Part shown: positions 4,209 to 63,386 of the stretch, piece by piece | How positions within the stretch are numbered: the stretch's first letter is position 1 | How the letters are laid out: each line of letters opens with the position of its first letter | NCBI GenBank assembly: GCA_026985075.1 | Contig: JALSQX010000103.1 | Location: 1-64,000 of the forward strand | Origin: Blastocatellia bacterium | Lineage (GTDB): Bacteria > Acidobacteriota > Blastocatellia > HR10 > J050 | Length of the DNA stretch: 64,000 bases | Direction of reading: 5' to 3' | The notes under the pieces: model-generated | Databases searched by the model: none | The model's input: the letters and a program-made list of their open reading frames with translations, nothing else | Told to the model about the DNA's origin: nothing | Program-made: the position numbers and the translations under genes

Positions 4209-5828
4209 TCACAACTCCAATCCGATCCACGGCCAATAACTGACGGCCAGGAGACAGAACACGGCCCAGGCGATCAGGTCGAGTAACAAGCCTCCTTTGA
4301 TCACATCGCGCAGACGGACGAATCCAGAAGAATAGGCCAGCATCATCGCCGGCGTGCTCAGCGGAAGTGTGAACGCCAAACCGGAAGGGATGGCCAGCGC
4401 CAGCGTGAGGAGTCGGGGATCCAGAGCGATGTCGCGCGCCAGTCCAACGGCGACGGGCATCAACGAAGCGACGACGGCCGAGTTGCTCATCATCTCGGTG
4501 AGCACAATCGTCGACAGCGCCAATGCTGCCACCATCAGCACGGGCGAATGGATGAATCCTCCCAGCGTGTGTCGAGCGACCCAACTCGCCGCTCCCGTTC
4601 GCTCCAGCGCGAAGCCCATGGCGATAGCTCCGCCGTAGAGGAGAAAGACGCCCCAGTTGACGTCCTCCTCGACTTCCTTCCAGGTCATCAATTGGAAGAT
4701 GAACGCGATGACGACCGCCGCCAGAGCGATGTTGGCCAATCCCAGTCGATCTCCGAGCGTGACCCAACAGAAGATCGTGACGATCATGAGCGCTCCGATG
4801 CCCTTCTCTCGCCTGGTGAGCGGCCCGAGCGCTTGTGCTTTCTCGGATAAGAAACGCTCGGCGACTTCGACCTCGCCGAGTTCGGAAGGAAAGAACCGGA
4901 GTAACACCAAAAGACCCACTCCCATGAGCACGACGACGGTGGGTCCGGCGGCCAGCATCCAGGGAAGGAATCCGATCGTCCGTCCCGTCGTCTCCTGAAG
5001 GATTCCCACGGCCAGCGGCGCCCGTGCGCCTCCTAAGAATGTCGCTACGCTCCCGATGATACAGCCCCAGGCCATGGCCAGGAAGAGCCCAGCGCCATAC
5101 CGGCTGCGTCCCGGCTTCAGTCCGAGCGCCAAGGCGATCTCCGTGACGATGGGAAACATCATCGCCGCCACGGCGTGCGCTGTGATCCAGAAGGACATCA
5201 CGGCCGAGAGGAGAAACAGACTCCCCATCAACCGCTCCGGCGTCTTCCCACACCGCTTCAACACCAACAGGGCGATGCGCTGACTCAATCCCGATCGCAT
5301 GAACGAGGAAGCGAGAATGAACGCGCCGAGAATGAAGAACACAGCCTGATTGCCGAACAACGCATACGCCTCATTGGCCTTCAAGACCCCAGTCAGCGGG
5401 AACAAAATGACGGCCAACAACCCGGTGATCATCAATGGAATGACATCGGTCACCCAGAAGATGACGCAGACGAGGAAGATGGCCAAAGCCTTCAATCCTT
5501 CGGGCGTCAAGCCATCGGGCGCCGGTTGCGAGACGAGCGCAAAAAAGATGGCCATCGTCAAGGCGATGATGATGAGTCGCTTGTGTCGCGCCAGACGTTC
5601 CAGCCACCGTGGCCGCGTTTGAGCCAATCGACCTCGCAATACCAGAGGTCGCGCCGCGCCCTCCAGCACGCCCTCGGCAGCCGGGGGATCAGGGGCCGGT
5701 GATGACGTCGCTCTCTTCTCGTTCATAACGCTGGCTCGCGGACGAACTATCCGATCAAGCGCGTGGGGTTGACTGGCAGCAGACCGACCATGGGAATCCA
5801 TCGCCCGGTGATCGGGATCTTCGTTCAC
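4209..5828 (-). CDS. SLC13/DASS-type anion transporter
   Basis: A 539-residue polytopic membrane protein with about 11-12 hydrophobic segments, in the divalent anion:Na+ symporter family (dicarboxylates, sulfate). The C-terminal half-site SNSAVVASLMPVA matches the family's SNT/SNS motif. The corresponding N-terminal motif reads WITAHAVAAMMFP rather than SNT, so the substrate is uncertain. The GTG at 5828 overlaps the upstream oxidoreductase stop codon (GTGA), which suggests coupling. The first 34 residues look poorly protein-like, so ATG 5726 (MNEKRATSS) is an alternative start. Likely an importer of organic or inorganic anions. Confidence 0.88.
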   Translation of the reverse strand: MNEDPDHRAMDSHGRSAASQPHALDRIVRPRASVMNEKRATSSPAPDPPAAEGVLEGAARPLVLRGRLAQTRPRWLERLARHKRLIIIALTMAIFFALVSQPAPDGLTPEGLKALAIFLVCVIFWVTDVIPLMITGLLAVILFPLTGVLKANEAYALFGNQAVFFILGAFILASSFMRSGLSQRIALLVLKRCGKTPERLMGSLFLLSAVMSFWITAHAVAAMMFPIVTEIALALGLKPGRSRYGAGLFLAMAWGCIIGSVATFLGGARAPLAVGILQETTGRTIGFLPWMLAAGPTVVVLMGVGLLVLLRFFPSELGEVEVAERFLSEKAQALGPLTRREKGIGALMIVTIFCWVTLGDRLGLANIALAAVVIAFIFQLMTWKEVEEDVNWGVFLLYGGAIAMGFALERTGAASWVARHTLGGFIHSPVLMVAALALSTIVLTEMMSNSAVVASLMPVAVGLARDIALDPRLLTLALAIPSGLAFTLPLSTPAMMLAYSSGFVRLRDVIKGGLLLDLIAWAVFCLLAVSYWPWIGLEL

Positions 5829-7828
5829 GCAATCTTTTCGATCTCCACGCGGGCATCATTGTAACAGGCTCCTCCTCCGACCTCGTTGACATGAGGGGGA
5901 CAAAGCGCCGTGGCCGTGAAGCCGTTCAGGGACGATTTTCGCCAAGCGCCTTTGGGCATAGAAACGACGCCCGCTCGCACCCGCTGGCTCACTTCGGCCC
6001 GGCAGACGACCTCGCCGAACTCATTGAACACGCGGACGACGTCCCCCTCGTTGATCCCTCTGGCCGAAGCGTCGACCGGATTCAGGGTCACGCACAATTC
6101 GGGATAATTGAACTCGCCCAACGTGCTGCTGATCATCCTGGCATTGGCCGGACTGACCAGGGCGAGGGGAAACTGAGAGTTATCGACCGGCTGATACCGG
6201 TATGGCTCTCCCCCCAACGCCGATGGGGCGAGATGAATCTTCCCATCGGGCGTTCCGGGAAAGACCGTTCCGAATTGAATGGGTGTCTCTCCGGGAAAAT
6301 CAAAACGATGAGGGCGACCAGCAAACAAGACGCTGGGATCGACCGGGCGGCCACAGATGGAGAGAGCGGCAGCCACCTTTTTCATGCAGGTCTCCGTATC
6401 CCAGGTGAACGGTTCCTCGTCCCAACCCATCGCTCGTCCGAGGAGAGCGAACACCTCCTCATTCGGTTTCGCCTCGCCACGAGGAGCGATGACCGGCTGC
6501 ACGCCACCCACCGTATAGCTTCCATACGCTTTCTTGATCTCCCACTGCTCGAGGAACGTCGTCGCCGGCAGGAGAATATCAGCGTACCGGGCCGTGTCAG
6601 TCATGACCTGCTCGAAGACGACGGTGAACAGATCCTCGCGCGCCAGACCGCGGAGCACGGCACGCTGATCGGGCGCCGTCACGGCGGGATTGCAATTGTA
6701 CACGAACAACGCCTTGATGGGAGGTCGCGCATCTCCACATAAAACGGCTCCCAGTCGCGTCATGTTGATCACCCGGGTGGACCAGCGATAATTTCCCAAC
6801 AGACGCGATCGGTCGTAGTGGATGGCACTGCCGTTGCTCAGCGTATACCCTCCACCGCGCATGCCGAACTTGCCGAGCAATGCGGGCATGGCCAGAATGG
6901 CGGCGACGGCCTGTCCCCCGTTGCGATTGCGCTCTAATCCCCATCCGCAACGGATGACCGCCGGCGTCGAAGCCGCATACCTTTCGGCCAGTATTCGAAT
7001 CTGGTCGGCCTCAACGCCCGCTTCCTCGGCAGCGCGATGGAGCGACCACGCCTCCGCCCGTTGAAGCAAGATCTCCACGCCCGTGGTATGTCGGTCGAGG
7101 AATGCCCAATCGAGTCGATGGGTTTCCTTCCACAAACGGATCATGGCTAATGCCACCGGTAGATCTGTGCCGGGACGAACAGGGAGATGAAGGTCCACGT
7201 GGCGAGCGGAAAAATTTTCCACCGGATCGACGACGGCCACGAATGCTCCACGACGCCTGGCCTCGCGAAGGAAGGGGACGAGATGTATGTGAGAGACCCT
7301 CGGGTTCGCCCCCCAGATGATGATGCAGCGGGCGTGACGATAATCCTCATAGGCGACGCCGGGCATCTTGCCATACATGGCCGCGGCCACCGCCGTCGTC
7401 GGCGCTGCGCAGAGCGTCCTGGCCAATCGCGAGGCGCCGAGTTTGGCAAAATACAGCTCATCGATGAACCGTTCACCGAGCAATCCGTTCGATCCTCCAT
7501 AGTGATAAGGGAGAATAGCCTCCCCGCCCCATCGCGCGATGATGTCTCGGAATCGATCAGTGATCGTGGCGATGGCTTCATCCCAGGTGATGCGCTCAAA
7601 CTGGCCGGAGCCTTTGGCTCCCCGACGCCGCATGGGATAGAGGAGGCGATCGGCATGATAGACGCGACGATCGAATCGGGACACTTTGCCGCAGATGAAA
7701 CCGTTCGTCGTCCGATGATGGCGCGTCCCGCCGATGCGTTGAATCCTCCCCGTATCCACGACGACTTCGAGGGAACAGGTATCGGGGCAATCCATGGTAC
7801 ACGTGGTGGAGATGATGTTCACAGTCAT
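5825..7828 (-). CDS. molybdopterin-dependent oxidoreductase (DMSO reductase superfamily)
   Basis: A 667-residue catalytic subunit of the Mo/W-bis-MGD family. An N-terminal [4Fe-4S] site is visible as Cys10, Cys14, Cys18 and Cys46. The likely metal ligand is Cys140 in ARTLCAAPTTAV, the position occupied by Sec, Cys or Ser across the family. Further on come GANPRVSHIH, the molybdopterin-binding YNCNPAVTAPDQ and DILLPATTFLEQ, and a C-terminal molydopterin-binding domain starting near residue 545. There is no Tat signal, so it is cytoplasmic. No Fe-S beta or membrane subunit gene is adjacent; the downstream neighbour is an anion carrier. The substrate is unknown; formate, thiosulfate or polysulfide-like reactions are possible. 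Confidence 0.9.
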   Translation of the reverse strand: MTVNIISTTCTMDCPDTCSLEVVVDTGRIQRIGGTRHHRTTNGFICGKVSRFDRRVYHADRLLYPMRRRGAKGSGQFERITWDEAIATITDRFRDIIARWGGEAILPYHYGGSNGLLGERFIDELYFAKLGASRLARTLCAAPTTAVAAAMYGKMPGVAYEDYRHARCIIIWGANPRVSHIHLVPFLREARRRGAFVAVVDPVENFSARHVDLHLPVRPGTDLPVALAMIRLWKETHRLDWAFLDRHTTGVEILLQRAEAWSLHRAAEEAGVEADQIRILAERYAASTPAVIRCGWGLERNRNGGQAVAAILAMPALLGKFGMRGGGYTLSNGSAIHYDRSRLLGNYRWSTRVINMTRLGAVLCGDARPPIKALFVYNCNPAVTAPDQRAVLRGLAREDLFTVVFEQVMTDTARYADILLPATTFLEQWEIKKAYGSYTVGGVQPVIAPRGEAKPNEEVFALLGRAMGWDEEPFTWDTETCMKKVAAALSICGRPVDPSVLFAGRPHRFDFPGETPIQFGTVFPGTPDGKIHLAPSALGGEPYRYQPVDNSQFPLALVSPANARMISSTLGEFNYPELCVTLNPVDASARGINEGDVVRVFNEFGEVVCRAEVSQRVRAGVVSMPKGAWRKSSLNGFTATALCPPHVNEVGGGACYNDARVEIEKIA

Positions 7829-8130
7829 AGGTTGAACTCCGGCGTTTCAGGATAGCGTCAATCCACCAGAGGCAGCAAGTCGCCTCCACCCCCGGCACTC
7901 AACGAATCCAGGCATGGGTGAGCGAAGGCACTCAAGGATGGAGAACCGGTTCCACACCCATCTCACGAATGCGCCTGGTCGGGGCGAGTGAGCGTCCTGA
8001 ACGAAGAATAGAGATCTGGTTCCATGTTCGAACTGACAGTACCGGGAGGGTCGAGGATACGAGATTGGGGCTCCAGTGGCCCCGCCCCGGATGTGGGACC
8101 AGACGGGTCTGCGTCCCTCGCCGGTGAGCG
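7829..8130. other. 300-bp spacer between minus-strand genes
   Basis: No open frame here has protein-like composition or a convincing ribosome-binding site. The part nearest the oxidoreductase gene should carry its promoter. On the minus strand TTGCTG followed after 18 bp by TATCCT is a weak candidate. I see no tRNA or clear hairpin. Confidence 0.4.
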
Positions 8131-10065
8131 TCAGTTCCACCCCGACGTCTGGACGAGGAGGCGCTCGATGGCCGCCTGGACAGCCTGACGATGGGCCTGG
8201 TCGTCAGTCTGAAGCGCCATGCGATAGTGATACAACGCCCGCTCTGGCTCGCCTCGCGCCGCGAGGATCAACCCAAGATTGAAATGCGCATACACATAAC
8301 GCCCGTCCATGAGCAAAGCTCTTTCGAAGGCCCGTTCGGCTTCGTCGAGCCGCCCCATCTCGGCGAGCGTCGTTCCCAGATTCGTTTGGGCCCGCACCGA
8401 ACGAGGATCGACTTCCAAGGCGCGACGATAATATCGCAACGCCGCCTCCCGATCTCCCGTCATCACCAGGACATCCCCGAGGTTCGCGTACACCAGTGCA
8501 GGATTCCCTTCCCCGCTTCGGAGGGAAGGGGCCAAAGAGGACCAACTGGCAATCTCGTGCTCCTGGAGATGCCGCTCGACGACGGCGATGGCTCGATGGT
8601 ACTCCTGGATGGCGGCTTCCAATTGTCCTTTTTTCACTAACAGCCCGGCCAGATTGTTCCGTGCTTCCCAGGAGTCGGGGAGTAACTCGATGGACTGACG
8701 GTAAGCTCTCATCGCCTCGTCGATTTCCCCTTCCCCTTCCAAAGCCTGCGCCAGTTGAAAATGAGCCTCTCCTACGCGCGGAGAGACGGCGACCAGCGCT
8801 CGGCTGGCGGCCACTCCACTATATGATCGCCCGGCTTCCAGCGCGGCCAGCACGAGAACGATGGCCGCCAGATAACCAGCCTGAACCAGACCCGGTTTGA
8901 GCGGCCGCAACCTTTCGCGGATTCCCTGCAGAGAAGACATCATCGCTCGTTCATGAGTCTCTCTCGCCGTGGCAATATCCAGGTACTGGCGCGTCTCGGG
9001 CTCCCGCACTTTCCAGATGAACCCATCGGTGTAATAGTGGAGCGCATTGGACGTAAACACGAACGCCAAAAGCAACCTGAGCATCGACTCGTCGCTGATC
9101 ATGCCGGTGATATAGTTCACGCCGCCATAGGCGAAGATGAGCACGAGATAGAGCACAACGCGGCCCGGGCTCGGTCGAAAGAGGAACCTCATCAAAGCCG
9201 TCACTGGACGCCGGCGCTCCACCCGATTGCGGTTGAATGCCCAAACAATCCCATAGTATTGCACGCAATGGAAGGCCGACCATACGGTGAATCCGACCAG
9301 GAAGTCGCCAATGTACACGTAGAGAACGTACGTCGCTCCCACAAAGATCGCCAGAGTGACGAGCTTGCGGAGACTGACCGGATGGCCTTCCCGCCAACGG
9401 CGAACATGGTATCCCACATAGAGCAGGGTCAATCCCACCGAGAGAAACCACAGTCCTCGGCGAACGCCCAGGAGCGCCGGTGCCGGGATGATAGGAAGAC
9501 CAGCCTGATAGGCGAGCCGGAGCAGGTTGTGCGAATAATGTGGGCTATTGAGGATGAGGGTGAGATACCAGCAGAGCGAAACGATCCAATCCAGGCGCGC
9601 GTTCAACGAGCTCGTCGCTCCCCGTTTGGCGTCATAAATGCGCATGAACCCATAGTGCTGCATCAGCACGTGCCAGATGTCCCAGGCCGATAAGAAGAGA
9701 AACAGCGTATGGAACTCATGACTCCGGAATCCCAGCGCGGCGAAGAAGAAGAGAGGCGGCGCCAACAAAAATCGAAGCCGATATCGGGCAAACAGCTCCC
9801 GATCTCCATAGATGCGCAAAAATCCCGGCAAGTGATGACCGAAGGTGAAAAAGGCGAGGAGGAAAACGGCGATCTGGCGAGAACTGAAGTAGGCTCGCAA
9901 AGGGAGGAACATCGCCATGCAGACCAGAGGCGCGCCAATGAATAATACGCTATCCCAGAAGGGGGAGAGAATCCACAGAGAGGAACCGGGGACGATCGCC
10001 TCAGAACCAGACGATCGTCCAGAGCGCGATGACCCGGTCTTTCGTCGCCGTCTTTTCCTCGACAT
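8131..10065 (-). CDS. polytopic membrane protein with C-terminal TPR domain
   Basis: A 644-residue fusion. Residues about 35-400 hold roughly 8-10 hydrophobic segments. Residues about 430-640 form 4-5 tetratricopeptide repeats (for example AHFQLAQALEGEGEIDEAM and VYANLGDVLVMTGDREAAL). The membrane part has many His-containing motifs: GHHLPGFLRIYGD, IWHVLMQHYGFMRIYDAK, HCVQYYG and LHYYTDGFIWK. Such spacing resembles metal-binding membrane enzymes, but I do not recognise a characterised family. A Lys/Arg-rich N-terminus precedes the first helix. It follows a 300-bp gap after the oxidoreductase on the same strand and diverges from the gene at 10403. Function unknown. Confidence 0.85.
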   Translation of the reverse strand: MSRKRRRRKTGSSRSGRSSGSEAIVPGSSLWILSPFWDSVLFIGAPLVCMAMFLPLRAYFSSRQIAVFLLAFFTFGHHLPGFLRIYGDRELFARYRLRFLLAPPLFFFAALGFRSHEFHTLFLFLSAWDIWHVLMQHYGFMRIYDAKRGATSSLNARLDWIVSLCWYLTLILNSPHYSHNLLRLAYQAGLPIIPAPALLGVRRGLWFLSVGLTLLYVGYHVRRWREGHPVSLRKLVTLAIFVGATYVLYVYIGDFLVGFTVWSAFHCVQYYGIVWAFNRNRVERRRPVTALMRFLFRPSPGRVVLYLVLIFAYGGVNYITGMISDESMLRLLLAFVFTSNALHYYTDGFIWKVREPETRQYLDIATARETHERAMMSSLQGIRERLRPLKPGLVQAGYLAAIVLVLAALEAGRSYSGVAASRALVAVSPRVGEAHFQLAQALEGEGEIDEAMRAYRQSIELLPDSWEARNNLAGLLVKKGQLEAAIQEYHRAIAVVERHLQEHEIASWSSLAPSLRSGEGNPALVYANLGDVLVMTGDREAALRYYRRALEVDPRSVRAQTNLGTTLAEMGRLDEAERAFERALLMDGRYVYAHFNLGLILAARGEPERALYHYRMALQTDDQAHRQAVQAAIERLLVQTSGWN

Positions 10066-10402: not shown

Positions 10403-10852
10403 ATGGGAAAGATCAATGTAGGTCGCGTCGTTCTCGGTGGGCTACTCGCCGGTGTGGTGCTGAATATTGGCGAGTACATTCTCAATGAGCCGATCCTCGG
10501 CCAGGAGTGGAAAGCGGCCATGGAGCGGCTCAATGTGTCCCCTCCCGAAGGGAACGTCATCGCCTGGTACGTGGTGATGGGATTCATCCTCGGGATCGCT
10601 ATAGTCTGGCTCTATGCAGCCATCCGCCCCCGATATGGTGCCGGGCCAAAAACGGCCATCATTGCCGGTCTCGCCGCTTGGTTCTTCGTCTGGTTATGGG
10701 GACCGGTGAGCCTGTCGGTCACCGGTCTGTTCCCGGCGAAGCCCGTGATGGTGACCATCATTTGGGGCTTCTTTGAAGCGCCTATCGCCGCGTTGGCCGG
10801 CGCGTGGCTCTATAGAGAGGAAGAGCACGTCGCCGAACCAGCCGCTCAATGA
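10403..10852 (+). CDS. hypothetical four-helix membrane protein
   Basis: A 149-residue protein with four predicted membrane helices, at about residues 8-27, 51-72, 81-99 and 113-138. The polar loops are short and the tail is acidic (EEEHVAEPAAQ). It starts with a clear ATG 6 bp after TAGGGGGG. I recognise no characterised family. The second helix begins after a conserved-looking WYVVMGFILG. It stands alone: divergent from the TPR membrane protein, with uvrC convergent on the far side of a 194-bp gap (10853-11046) in which I see nothing. Confidence 0.75.
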   Translation: MGKINVGRVVLGGLLAGVVLNIGEYILNEPILGQEWKAAMERLNVSPPEGNVIAWYVVMGFILGIAIVWLYAAIRPRYGAGPKTAIIAGLAAWFFVWLWGPVSLSVTGLFPAKPVMVTIIWGFFEAPIAALAGAWLYREEEHVAEPAAQ

Positions 10853-12874: not shown

Positions 12875-13615
12875 CTATAATCCTAATCCCGTCATCAACT
12901 GGTCCGTCAAGTAGAACAAGGCCACCCCCGCAAAGACGACAACGGAGACGAAGACCCCCTCTTCCTTGTTCACTTCGGGAATGAGATCCGAAGCCGCAAT
13001 ATACAGCGTCACTCCGGCGGATAAGGGCAACACATAACCGACGCTCCCTTGAAATGGCCCCACAGCAATGACCCCCACTAACGTCGCGCCCCCCACCAGA
13101 AGGGTCGCCCACCGCGCCATCTGCCTGGACCGCCCCGAAGCCAATACGATGGACGCCACGGTCACGCCGTCGGGAATCTTGTGGAGGACCACGGCCAGGA
13201 AAATGAGGAACCCCAAGCGAACATCGACCAGAAAGCCGGCGGCAATGACCACACCATCGAAAAACGTGTGAATAGTCAGCCCTCCAATCGCCGCTACCAT
13301 GGCTCGCGTATCGAGCAAGGCCTCAGGATGCGTCTCTTCTCCCAGATGGAAGTGCGAGACCATCGTGTGCTCGAAGAATTGAATCAGAAGATACCCTCCC
13401 AGCACGAGCCCCAAAGGAACCTCCAGCTGACCGGGCCACAACCGGACGGCGGCCGGCGCGACCTCCAAGAAAACGGCAGCCAACATGAATCCCGCCCCCA
13501 AGCCGACCAGCCGAGCCAGTAGCGAGGGACCAATCCGTCGCCGGGAGGTGAGCCAGAAGCCCCCCGCTACGTTGGCCAGCGCAGCCACTCCTCCATACAT
13601 CAACAGTTCGATCAT
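12875..13615 (-). CDS. ZIP family metal transporter
   Basis: A 246-residue membrane protein with about eight hydrophobic segments. The two metal-site helices characteristic of ZIP proteins are present: HTFFDGVVIAAGF (about residue 130) and LHKIPDGVTVAS (about 160). A His-containing loop (EHTMVSHFHLGEE) lies between earlier helices. It probably moves zinc or another divalent cation into the cytoplasm. I place the start at ATG 13615, because AGGAGG lies just upstream; a TTG 12 bp further up is immediately followed by that ribosome-binding sequence. It is followed at 7 bp by uvrC. Confidence 0.9.
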   Translation of the reverse strand: MIELLMYGGVAALANVAGGFWLTSRRRIGPSLLARLVGLGAGFMLAAVFLEVAPAAVRLWPGQLEVPLGLVLGGYLLIQFFEHTMVSHFHLGEETHPEALLDTRAMVAAIGGLTIHTFFDGVVIAAGFLVDVRLGFLIFLAVVLHKIPDGVTVASIVLASGRSRQMARWATLLVGGATLVGVIAVGPFQGSVGYVLPLSAGVTLYIAASDLIPEVNKEEGVFVSVVVFAGVALFYLTDQLMTGLGL

Positions 13616-13809
13616 GAGCCTCCTCAATTATACCGGCGTGGTGAGCGGGCCGACTTCCAGTATACTCACTCCCGCCGAGGGATTCAAACGGGGCTCTTCA
13701 TCTCTCATCTGAAAGCGCATCTTGTGGAATATCAGTGTATTACATCACCTCCCTGAAGCTCCACTTAAATCCCCCTCTTCTAACTTCCTAACAAGAGAAA
13801 ACTTTTCGC

Positions 13810-60254: not shown

Positions 60255-60276
60255 GAGATAGCATGCATCCTATCTC
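60255..60276. other. inverted repeat between convergent peptide and CHAT genes
   Basis: GAGATAG (60255-60261) and CTATCTC (60270-60276) can form a 7-bp stem with an 8-nt loop. It overlaps the stop codon of the CHAT gene and lies 13 bp after the peptide stop. No U-tract follows on either strand, so intrinsic termination is unproven. It might slow polymerase in both directions or be a protein site. Confidence 0.4.
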
Positions 60277-63200
60277 GCCACTCCCAGAGCGTCATCGGGA
60301 GGGCCGACGAGCACGAACGGCGCCCAGAAGAAGGGAGCCGCGCCCCGGCGAAGGACGTCGAGCTTCGCCCACTGGAGGGCGCGAGGGACCGATTGTCTTT
60401 GCATCAACAAGCGTCGATAAAAAGAGATCATCAGTTGACGGGTCGATTCATCTTCGACGCTCCATAGAGAGGCGCAGATATCTCGCGCGCCGGCCAGCAG
60501 GAACGCCCGGCTGAGGCCGATGATGCCCTCGGCACCAGTCGTCTCGCCACCGCCCGTCTCACAGGCGCTGAGCACGACAAGATCGGCAGTCAATCGCAAT
60601 CGCTCGATCTCGGCGGCGGTGAGCAATCCATCATCGTCGGGCGGCTCGTCGCCCAGAGTGAGGATGATGCCGGAGAAATCGCCCTCCACGGGATCGGCTA
60701 CGGCGTGAGTGGCGAAGTGGATCAACCGATAGGCGCCGAGATCGTCTGACTTGAGATTGCGCTCGCTGGCCTGGAAGCCGAGCCAGACTCTGGCCTGCCA
60801 CCGGGCCCGCTCGGCCAGTTCGGCGATGCTGAGCACTTCCTTGCGGGTGGCCGGAAGTCGATAGACTCCCGAACGGAGGCGCGGCTCCCGGAGCCTGGCC
60901 ACTTCCGATTCTCGTTCTTCGGACGATTGGTGCCGTCCGGCCAATCGCGGATCGCGCTCGCTGAACACGGGATCGCCGATCAGGAGCAATCTCTTCACTC
61001 TGGCGGATGCCGCGATCATCGTTCGCTCCCGGCGCTCCACTTCGGCCAGGACCGAAATCGATGGAGCATAACTGATGGCGTGATCATGCACGAGATAGCG
61101 AAGCCGATTGAAGTTCCCGGCATCTTCGGGCGCCGAGACGACCAGACTCTCGAAGGCCAACTGGTAGAGCGATTCGTCGGGCACAATGACGAGATCGTAT
61201 CCGCGAATGACGCGCGCCGCCGGTCGGACGAGTAGATCGTAGAGGCGGTGAGCCACTCGCGCGTACTCCCTGACCAACTTCTCGGTCGGCTCACGCGGCT
61301 TCAGTTGACGCCCGATGGCCGCTCGCCACTCGGTCACCGCCTTGCCGATGGCGTCCCACCCGGCGAGCTTGAAGAGATGAGCCTCATCTCGCCGAAGGAC
61401 GATCAAGAAACTCTCTCGAGGACCGAGTTGATAGAAGAGGATGGCCGTCCGGGGATGGGTGCCCAGGAATCGCTCTCGAACTTCGCGGGCGGTGAGCGGC
61501 GAGAGCAAGGCAGCATCATAGCGATTCTTGGCCAGGTGACGCAGCCGGGCATCGAGCCGCATGCGAGCGGCCACCAGTCGGGCGCGCTCGCGCTCCAACT
61601 GCTGGACGGTGAGCGGATCGAGATTTCCCCGAGCCTTCAAAAACACCAGTCGCCGACCGAGCGTGGAGATGCGTTTCAACAGATCGCGCTCCCGCCCCAG
61701 CAATCGGGCATCGACGATAGATGCCCGCTCCGCGTTGGAAGTCACCAGTTGATGAAGCAATGCCAGGCAGCGACTCCGCTCGGCGAAATCGAACGCCTGT
61801 TCGGCGTATTCTCGATTCGAGTGTCGCTCGCTCAAAGCATGCAGGTTTCTGATGATTTGCGTGGAGACAGCCTTGGATTGAGACAAGTAGTGCTGGCGAA
61901 GTTCTTCGACCGATTCTCGCGCCCAGGCCGCTTCGGTGACCTGCAAGGCTTCCAGGGCGAGCTGAAGGGCCGCCTCGTGATTCCCTCGCAACATCTCTCC
62001 CTGCGCCTGGAGCTGGAGCGCTCTCCGTCGCGGATTGGGATCTTCATCGTCGGGACGGGTTAATGCCACCGCCTGCCGCGCCGATCGGATCATGCCGTCT
62101 ACGTCTTTCCGACGAAAATACTCCAGGCTCATGAGGGTGAGGGCGGCGACTTCCTGATCGCGATATCCCAGTCGATGAGCCATGTCGCGCGCCTGTTGCA
62201 TCAATGCGAATCCTTCCTCTGGACGACGAGATACCATATAAGCAACGGCCAGCGCTTGAATGGCTTTCAATGTCAGGACAGGCGCGATGCCCGCGCGCAG
62301 GTCATAGGCTTTATGTGCGTATTCCAGCGCCTTCTCTCGATCCTGCAACAGTCGAAATTCGCTCAACGTGGTATACAATTGCGCGGCGGCACTCGATTGT
62401 TCGAACGACCGGAAGTAATCAGCGGCTTTGCGATAGTAGGTGGCGGCCAGTTCGGCGCGATCGATGTACCGATAGAGATCGCCGAGTTCGATGGAGGTGA
62501 CGGCTTCGGCCCAGTCGGCAGCCCACAGTTTCCGGCTCATCTCCAGAGCCCGTTCCAATTGATCGACGGCTCGATCGTAGCGGCGACGCTCCCTGAGCAG
62601 GATACCGCGTTCCAGCGCCACCGCCCATCGACCGTATGAGAAGTCCGCTCGTTGAGCGGCGGCGAGACTTCGGGCGTAATACGTTTCGGCCCGCTTCCAT
62701 TGTCGGTGCTGGCGGAAGTATCTTCCCAGGGCCAGATTGAGCCAACTCATGGCGCGCCAGTTCTGCTCTCGCTCGGCCCAGGCCATGCCCTGATCATAAT
62801 AGGCCATGGCCGATGTTTCGTTCCACGCCGTCAGTTGGTCTTCCTCTTCGATACTCAACCAATAGGTTCCATACTGATCGGCGTTGAGGCCACAGACGAC
62901 GATCGTATACCGTCCGGATACCGGTAGTGTGGTGGAAATTCGGGCATTAAAAAATCCCCCACTATCGTCGCTCCAGGCGATTTGTCGGCCTGTGGGATCG
63001 ATGAGGATGAGATAGGGATCGAACTCGTAAGATTGAGCTATGATGGTGACCGTCTGACCGGCTCGGGCATTCAACGCCCAGTACTGCTCGCGACCATAGG
63101 GAGCGTTTCTCCGAATGGGATTGGTTTGGTGAAGGACTTGTCGATGGCGTTCGCCGAAGCGGGCCTGGTGATAAATGGGCGAGAAACGGCAACCGAACGG

Positions 63201-63317
63201 GGCGGAGGCCAGCACTAATCCAACCAACCCCACGATGACGAAGCCAGACCGCCACCCCTCGAGCCTCGCGGGAGAATATGCCCGCCATCGAGACGACCGT
63301 TTGTGGTCCTGGCTCAC
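60270..63317 (-). CDS. envelope-associated PPC-TPR-CHAT protease
   Basis: About 1015 residues from GTG 63317, which has AAGGAGG 9 bp upstream; a TTG at 63386 lies inside the predicted -35 box and is rejected. A hydrophobic N-terminal segment (about 25-40, ending FGC) exports or anchors it. A PPC-like beta domain follows (about 75-165; DPYLILIDPTGRQIAWSDD), then 6-8 TPR units (about 170-500), a helical linker, and a C-terminal CHAT domain (about 700-1010). The caspase-like dyad is present: His871 in HFATHAVADP and Cys919 in VVLSACETGGGE. CHAT enzymes are separase/caspase-like proteases. It is divergent from a sigma-like gene. Confidence 0.92.
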   Translation of the reverse strand: MSQDHKRSSRWRAYSPARLEGWRSGFVIVGLVGLVLASAPFGCRFSPIYHQARFGERHRQVLHQTNPIRRNAPYGREQYWALNARAGQTVTIIAQSYEFDPYLILIDPTGRQIAWSDDSGGFFNARISTTLPVSGRYTIVVCGLNADQYGTYWLSIEEEDQLTAWNETSAMAYYDQGMAWAEREQNWRAMSWLNLALGRYFRQHRQWKRAETYYARSLAAAQRADFSYGRWAVALERGILLRERRRYDRAVDQLERALEMSRKLWAADWAEAVTSIELGDLYRYIDRAELAATYYRKAADYFRSFEQSSAAAQLYTTLSEFRLLQDREKALEYAHKAYDLRAGIAPVLTLKAIQALAVAYMVSRRPEEGFALMQQARDMAHRLGYRDQEVAALTLMSLEYFRRKDVDGMIRSARQAVALTRPDDEDPNPRRRALQLQAQGEMLRGNHEAALQLALEALQVTEAAWARESVEELRQHYLSQSKAVSTQIIRNLHALSERHSNREYAEQAFDFAERSRCLALLHQLVTSNAERASIVDARLLGRERDLLKRISTLGRRLVFLKARGNLDPLTVQQLERERARLVAARMRLDARLRHLAKNRYDAALLSPLTAREVRERFLGTHPRTAILFYQLGPRESFLIVLRRDEAHLFKLAGWDAIGKAVTEWRAAIGRQLKPREPTEKLVREYARVAHRLYDLLVRPAARVIRGYDLVIVPDESLYQLAFESLVVSAPEDAGNFNRLRYLVHDHAISYAPSISVLAEVERRERTMIAASARVKRLLLIGDPVFSERDPRLAGRHQSSEERESEVARLREPRLRSGVYRLPATRKEVLSIAELAERARWQARVWLGFQASERNLKSDDLGAYRLIHFATHAVADPVEGDFSGIILTLGDEPPDDDGLLTAAEIERLRLTADLVVLSACETGGGETTGAEGIIGLSRAFLLAGARDICASLWSVEDESTRQLMISFYRRLLMQRQSVPRALQWAKLDVLRRGAAPFFWAPFVLVGPPDDALGVAR

Positions 63318-63357
63318 CGCTTCCGACCTCCTTGCTGCGCTCACCGCTGATGCTAAA

Positions 63358-63386
63358 ACAATAACAAATGTCACCTGGAATCGCAA
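63358..63386 (-). promoter_or_regulatory. promoter for the CHAT gene
   Basis: On the minus strand TTGCGA (63381-63386), 17 bp and TATTGT (63358-63363). The start would be near 63352, giving a leader of about 35 nt that contains the AAGGAGG ribosome-binding site (63327-63333). It supports GTG 63317 as start codon. Confidence 0.6.

Follow-up and report, generated by a model that had tools for sequence, protein, structure and literature searches.

Membrane proteins with conserved His residues include the fatty acid desaturases and hydroxylases, which carry HxxxH and HxxHH boxes and share with the family described here the conserved membrane His and a suspected metal. UbiA prenyltransferases and microbial rhodopsins, characterized by Asp-rich motifs and a retinal Lys, respectively, are helical bundles like the present domain, and structures exist for the AdipoR/ceramidase group. 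Brp/Blh enzymes (beta-carotene 15,15'-dioxygenases of ~260-330 aa) are likewise membrane proteins with invariant His across several helices; four His are essential in one Blh, where replacing His21, 78, 188 or 192 leaves <5% activity according to excerpts of a review (PMC9227343). In four Blh proteins from rhodopsin plasmids, invariant His were found in an HGxxD motif, in an HF motif and at two later positions.

The gene analyzed here lies in a stretch of 64,000 nucleotides (hereafter, the window) from a Blastocatellia bacterium, and encodes a membrane domain followed by TPRs. The family of this domain (~350 aa) shows no detectable sequence relation to Brp/Blh and no rhodopsin context was seen for it; unlike the paired boxes of desaturases and hydroxylases, it has one invariant His per helix (63 rows). 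In our judgement there is about an even chance that the window protein is an inner-membrane metalloenzyme, probably a redox enzyme with non-heme iron, bearing a periplasmic TPR scaffold.

Gene and domain organization

The preliminary description had placed four His motifs in the membrane half of an open reading frame at 8131-10065, joined to TPRs; the coordinates, the motifs and the TPRs (Pfam) were all found. The features are as follows.

8131..10065, minus strand: whole coding sequence, 644 aa, comprising the membrane domain, an extra TM helix and the TPR domain; relatives share the frame in L001-L009
8971..9990, minus strand: 10-TM membrane domain of the unnamed family, residues ~26-365 (profile family; AlphaFold2 model)
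9952..9954, minus strand: D38, invariant, start of TM1 (63/63 rows)
9835..9837, minus strand: H77, invariant, TM2 (63/63 rows)
9658..9672, minus strand: H132 and Q136, invariant, TM4 (63/63 rows each)
9256..9270, minus strand: H266 and Y270, invariant, TM8 (63/63 rows each)
9025..9039, minus strand: H343, invariant (63/63 rows), and D347, near-invariant (62/63 rows), TM10
8833..8889, minus strand: TM11, extra hydrophobic helix, residues 393-411, joining the membrane domain to the TPRs (hydropathy 2.01 over 19 residues)
8164..8769, minus strand: TPR domain, residues ~433-634 (Pfam TPR_1, E 6.3e-32, five stretches; other TPR models)

The four His fall within GHHLPGF (H77), HVLMQHYGFMRIYD (H132), HCVQYYG (H266) and LHYYTDGFIWK (H343). 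The tandem TPR repeats were above the Pfam cut-off, while residues 1-420 gave nothing over it, with a sub-threshold match to DUF6418 only. A 97-aa frame at 7850-8140 was dismissed as spurious, and no Rfam match was obtained between 3500 and 14000.

Distribution of the family and origin of the TPR tails

The membrane-domain family was detected in 72 of 396 Acidobacteriota genomes with a 36-row profile (A1), and in 68 of the 338 genomes of a better-quality subset; the single membrane-domain sequence matched 25 of the 396 (the window's own genome is included in the counts over 396). Pattern scanning of genome contigs, with patterns that reach close relatives only, yielded nine loci, every one from a record titled Acidobacteria or Bryobacterales. 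One short pattern applied to viral contigs and two queries applied to plasmids brought up no relative. Most family matches were standalone proteins of ~350-450 aa, and identity to the window protein dropped to ~20% among the members of A1. The TPR half used as a query (8131-9000) matched 98 of 98 genomes and was excluded from the family definition.

In agreement with the preliminary description, whose author had recognized no characterized protein of this architecture, the membrane domain was assigned to no named Pfam family (36 members of A1; 58 members of a second alignment, A4), NCBIfam returned chance-level matches only for the 36 members, and a profile search of PDB chain sequences gave no match for the 36 and two chance-level matches for the 58. 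No account of the family appeared among the matches listed from the open-access literature searched, the coverage of which is incomplete. At two loci (L113, 4409-6205; L115, 5501-10135) the family domain was C-terminal, behind N-terminal parts of ~260 and ~1210 aa, respectively, that had no match in Pfam.

A 63-row alignment was used for the tree and the residue counts, L139 (same gene as L061) and the incomplete L008 and L136 having been dropped beforehand; A4 (58 rows) was built with other limits on its rows and had a mean column identity of 22%. Two changes are required on the 63-row tree to place the long C-terminal tails, and TPR tails were thus probably acquired on two separate occasions. 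The TPR label on this tree denotes a tail of >150 aa and was assigned by hand for L002, L003, L004, L006, L007, L046, L114 and the window protein, whereas Pfam-confirmed TPR tails are limited to five proteins (window, L108, L110, L112 and L114).

Conserved residues

Seven residues (D38, H77, H132, Q136, H266, Y270 and H343) were identical in 63 of 63 aligned members and D347 in 62, and the same seven columns were invariant in A4. The preliminary description had likened the His of its four motifs to metal ligands and had proposed their conservation across homologues as a check. Each motif supplies exactly one His that is invariant in all 63 rows, so that this part of the proposal held, although the invariant His are spaced one per helix and not in the clusters typical of desaturase boxes. 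Neighbouring His were poorly kept (H78 in 15 and H137 in 23 of 36 rows). Since the four His are identical in every row while adjacent ones vary, chance is ruled out, and an active or cofactor site would be the natural reading of the alignment. In addition, conserved basic residues were observed at the cytoplasmic helix ends of the family domain.

Predicted structure and topology

AlphaFold2 produced confident models both for the window domain (pLDDT 91.8, pTM 0.88) and for a second member ~19% identical to it (pLDDT 93.4, pTM 0.91), each with ~ten membrane helices. The four invariant His occupy mid-helix positions on TM2, TM4, TM8 and TM10 in the two models; in the second, counting from where each helix begins, they lie 14, 14, 11 and 17 residues in. 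The four His would presumably lie close together in space; their depth spread of 6 residues has a chance probability of ~0.04, which, coming from a post hoc test, is a weak argument. Sampled in 72 of 396 Acidobacteriota genomes and modelled with confidence, with neither a name nor a clear fold match, a family that conserves four His, two Asp, a Gln and a Tyr almost absolutely represents a clean target for new membrane chemistry.

In the metalloenzyme proposed here, the ten helices would make the core, and H77, H132, H266 and H343, predicted at approximately mid-membrane depth, would hold a single metal or a metal cluster, for which non-heme iron is the likeliest candidate. Placed a helical turn nearer the cytoplasm, Q136, Y270 and D347 could act as further ligands or acid/base groups. 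The most likely chemistry would be redox, whether oxygenation, desaturation or cleavage, with a substrate that is hydrophobic or anchored in the membrane. This reading is supported by the invariance of the residues, by the agreement between two models of divergent members and by the Lys/Arg topology given below, as well as by the four essential His reported for Blh in the review excerpts cited above (PMC9227343), and is weakened because heme binding, or proton or ion transfer, would be alternative roles for invariant His.

The first of these options is a heme-binding membrane redox protein, in which the His would ligate one or more hemes, Arg, Lys and Asn at the cytoplasmic ends would hold the propionates, and the TPRs would dock a cytochrome c. 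The presence of four invariant His on four helices, the conserved basic residues at cytoplasmic ends and the genes for 7-CXXCH proteins near four of the nine window-branch members are in line with such a protein; however, with all four His at a similar depth in the models, a single site is more fitting than a pair of stacked hemes, Pfam matched no heme-protein family, and no heme protein was among the Foldseek matches listed. We regard heme binding as unlikely.

Loops following the even helices had on average 4.2, 4.5, 3.4, 5.6 and 8.3 Lys/Arg and the segment before TM1 had 5.7, whereas the countable odd loops had 0.1-1.6. Because of this enrichment, both the N-terminus and the points where even helices leave the membrane would be cytoplasmic. 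A hydrophobic segment follows the domain in all 21 long-tailed members that have the searched end-of-domain motif (best 19-aa mean hydropathy 1.2-2.3). The preliminary description had left open whether the TPRs face the periplasm or the cytoplasm; given that an extra hydrophobic helix follows the ten-helix domain, and with the Lys/Arg counts, they are probably periplasmic, on the opposite side from the N-terminus. In the proposed metalloenzyme, the TPR scaffold would extend from this eleventh helix into the periplasm and might hold a partner protein there.

Comparison with known membrane families

Foldseek searches of the PDB with both models gave nothing at E<=0.001 and no E below 0.08, and the first model gave nothing at E<=0.001 against viral models, with no Blh-like name among the BFVD matches listed. 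With VIA-align, the top Z scores of both models (<=7) were in the background range for helical bundles. The top rows were UbiA prenyltransferases and microbial rhodopsins: for model 1, 8djk (Z 6.9, 184 residues at 5.4 A) and 4tq6 (Z 6.3, 169 residues at 4.0 A), and for model 2, 3qap (Z 7.0, 169 residues at 5.2 A). The UbiA rows (Z 6.9 and 6.3 for model 1, 6.2 and 6.0 for model 2) were tied with unrelated rows, and the Asp-rich motifs or retinal Lys of these two groups differ from the invariant His of the present family.

Likeness to desaturases or Brp/Blh had also been suggested in the preliminary description; taken as membership, it was not supported by the profile searches. Pfam gave no desaturase or hydroxylase match in 36 and 58 members, and PF15461, which matched all four Blh controls, had no match at E<=1 in the 36 members nor at E<=0.1 in the 58. 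The hhalign probability against Blh profiles, which are shallow, was 0.2% (4 rows) and 0.3% (6 rows). Run globally, hhalign produced no alignment fit for use, and helix parity in Blh, judged from hydropathy, was ambiguous and set aside. PF15461 was over its cut-off in none of 149 Acidobacteriota genomes; two weak matches in this phylum, discarded as candidates, were judged to lie in a frame resembling a histidine kinase and in a small unrelated protein. No PDB sequence match for Blh was obtained in the PDB copy searched.

A distant but genuine membership of the carotenoid-cleaving Brp/Blh enzymes is encouraged by an arrangement common to both, with invariant His in an early helix, at later positions and in the last helix, together with the four His essential in one Blh, but the hhalign values, obtained against shallow profiles of 4-6 rows, and the lack of PF15461 matches in the 36 and 58 members and in the 149 genomes make it most improbable. 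By analogy, the family may work like Blh, whereas kinship is unsupported; it is in this sense that the proposed metalloenzyme is considered Brp/Blh-like.

Gene neighbourhood

In one standalone branch of the family, 13 of 19 rows had an FAD amine-oxidase gene (PF01593) upstream in the same orientation, directly adjacent in 10 of them, and the retrieved stretch included a spermidine-synthase-like gene (PF01564) in 13 of the 19 (both labels derive from Pfam runs on representatives only). Genes for DUF4178 were also near standalone-branch members at some loci. The amine oxidase of this standalone branch and the 7-CXXCH proteins of the window branch support the redox reading of the metalloenzyme, which is in turn weakened because the amine-oxidase and spermidine-synthase-like neighbours come from another branch than the window gene. 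The window genome had no match to a spermidine-synthase-like query, in a search without positive control, and only a weak match to an amine-oxidase query, and this context was dropped for the window gene.

Groups of spermidine-synthase, DUF4178 and polyamine-oxidase genes occur with PspA, as given in excerpts of PMC11237479, and resemble the neighbourhood of the standalone branch; they differ in that the present membrane family goes unmentioned in those excerpts and in that the window genome has no spermidine-synthase-like match. The recurrence of both neighbours makes a substrate hypothesis testable. Speculatively, and rather unlikely as a whole, the family could be an unnamed class of intramembrane four-His metalloenzymes, the fold of which might itself be unreported. 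These would oxidize or cleave a membrane-bound product made by two kinds of partner, membrane spermidine-synthase-like proteins and FAD amine oxidases, and would have acquired TPR scaffolds in the periplasm on at least two occasions.

The neighbours also bear on two further alternatives. GDSL-lipase and membrane-acyltransferase genes were found at a few family loci and, together with a His/Asp/Tyr/Gln set that would suit zinc hydrolysis, they recall a zinc hydrolase or lipid-head-group transferase that parallels the ceramidase/PAQR group by convergence; with no such fold among the Foldseek matches listed and no Pfam match, this is decidedly unlikely. As for a metal or proton transporter or sensor, with a His/Asp translocation path and TPRs that bind a regulator, D38, D347 and the four His are distributed over five helices and the window has a ZIP-like gene close by (12875-13627), but Pfam and NCBIfam gave no convincing transporter match and the FAD amine-oxidase and spermidine-synthase-like neighbours in one branch suggest metabolism, so that we consider it very unlikely.

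Directly downstream of the target gene, the minus strand of the window encodes a molybdopterin oxidoreductase (5825-7828; DMSO-reductase-type NCBIfam matches below cut-offs), followed by a DASS anion symporter (4209-5828, minus strand; NCBIfam match over cut-off). A molybdopterin oxidoreductase gene is also downstream in L001, the closest relative of the window protein. A 149-aa membrane protein (10403-10852, plus strand), divergent from the target and with no family over cut-off, has the same place in L001. At L002, L003, L004 and L009, the first or second gene downstream of the relative of the target encodes a seven-CXXCH protein, in which TPRs were checked with Pfam for L002 and L003. At the locus of a distant member (L126, 1-11001), genes for an MFS/spermidine-synthase-like protein, a TPR protein, a standalone family member and an acyltransferase-TPR protein are consecutive on one strand. 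Elsewhere in the window, a large protein is encoded at 60270-63386 (minus strand), the end of which presumably resembles a CHAT protease domain.
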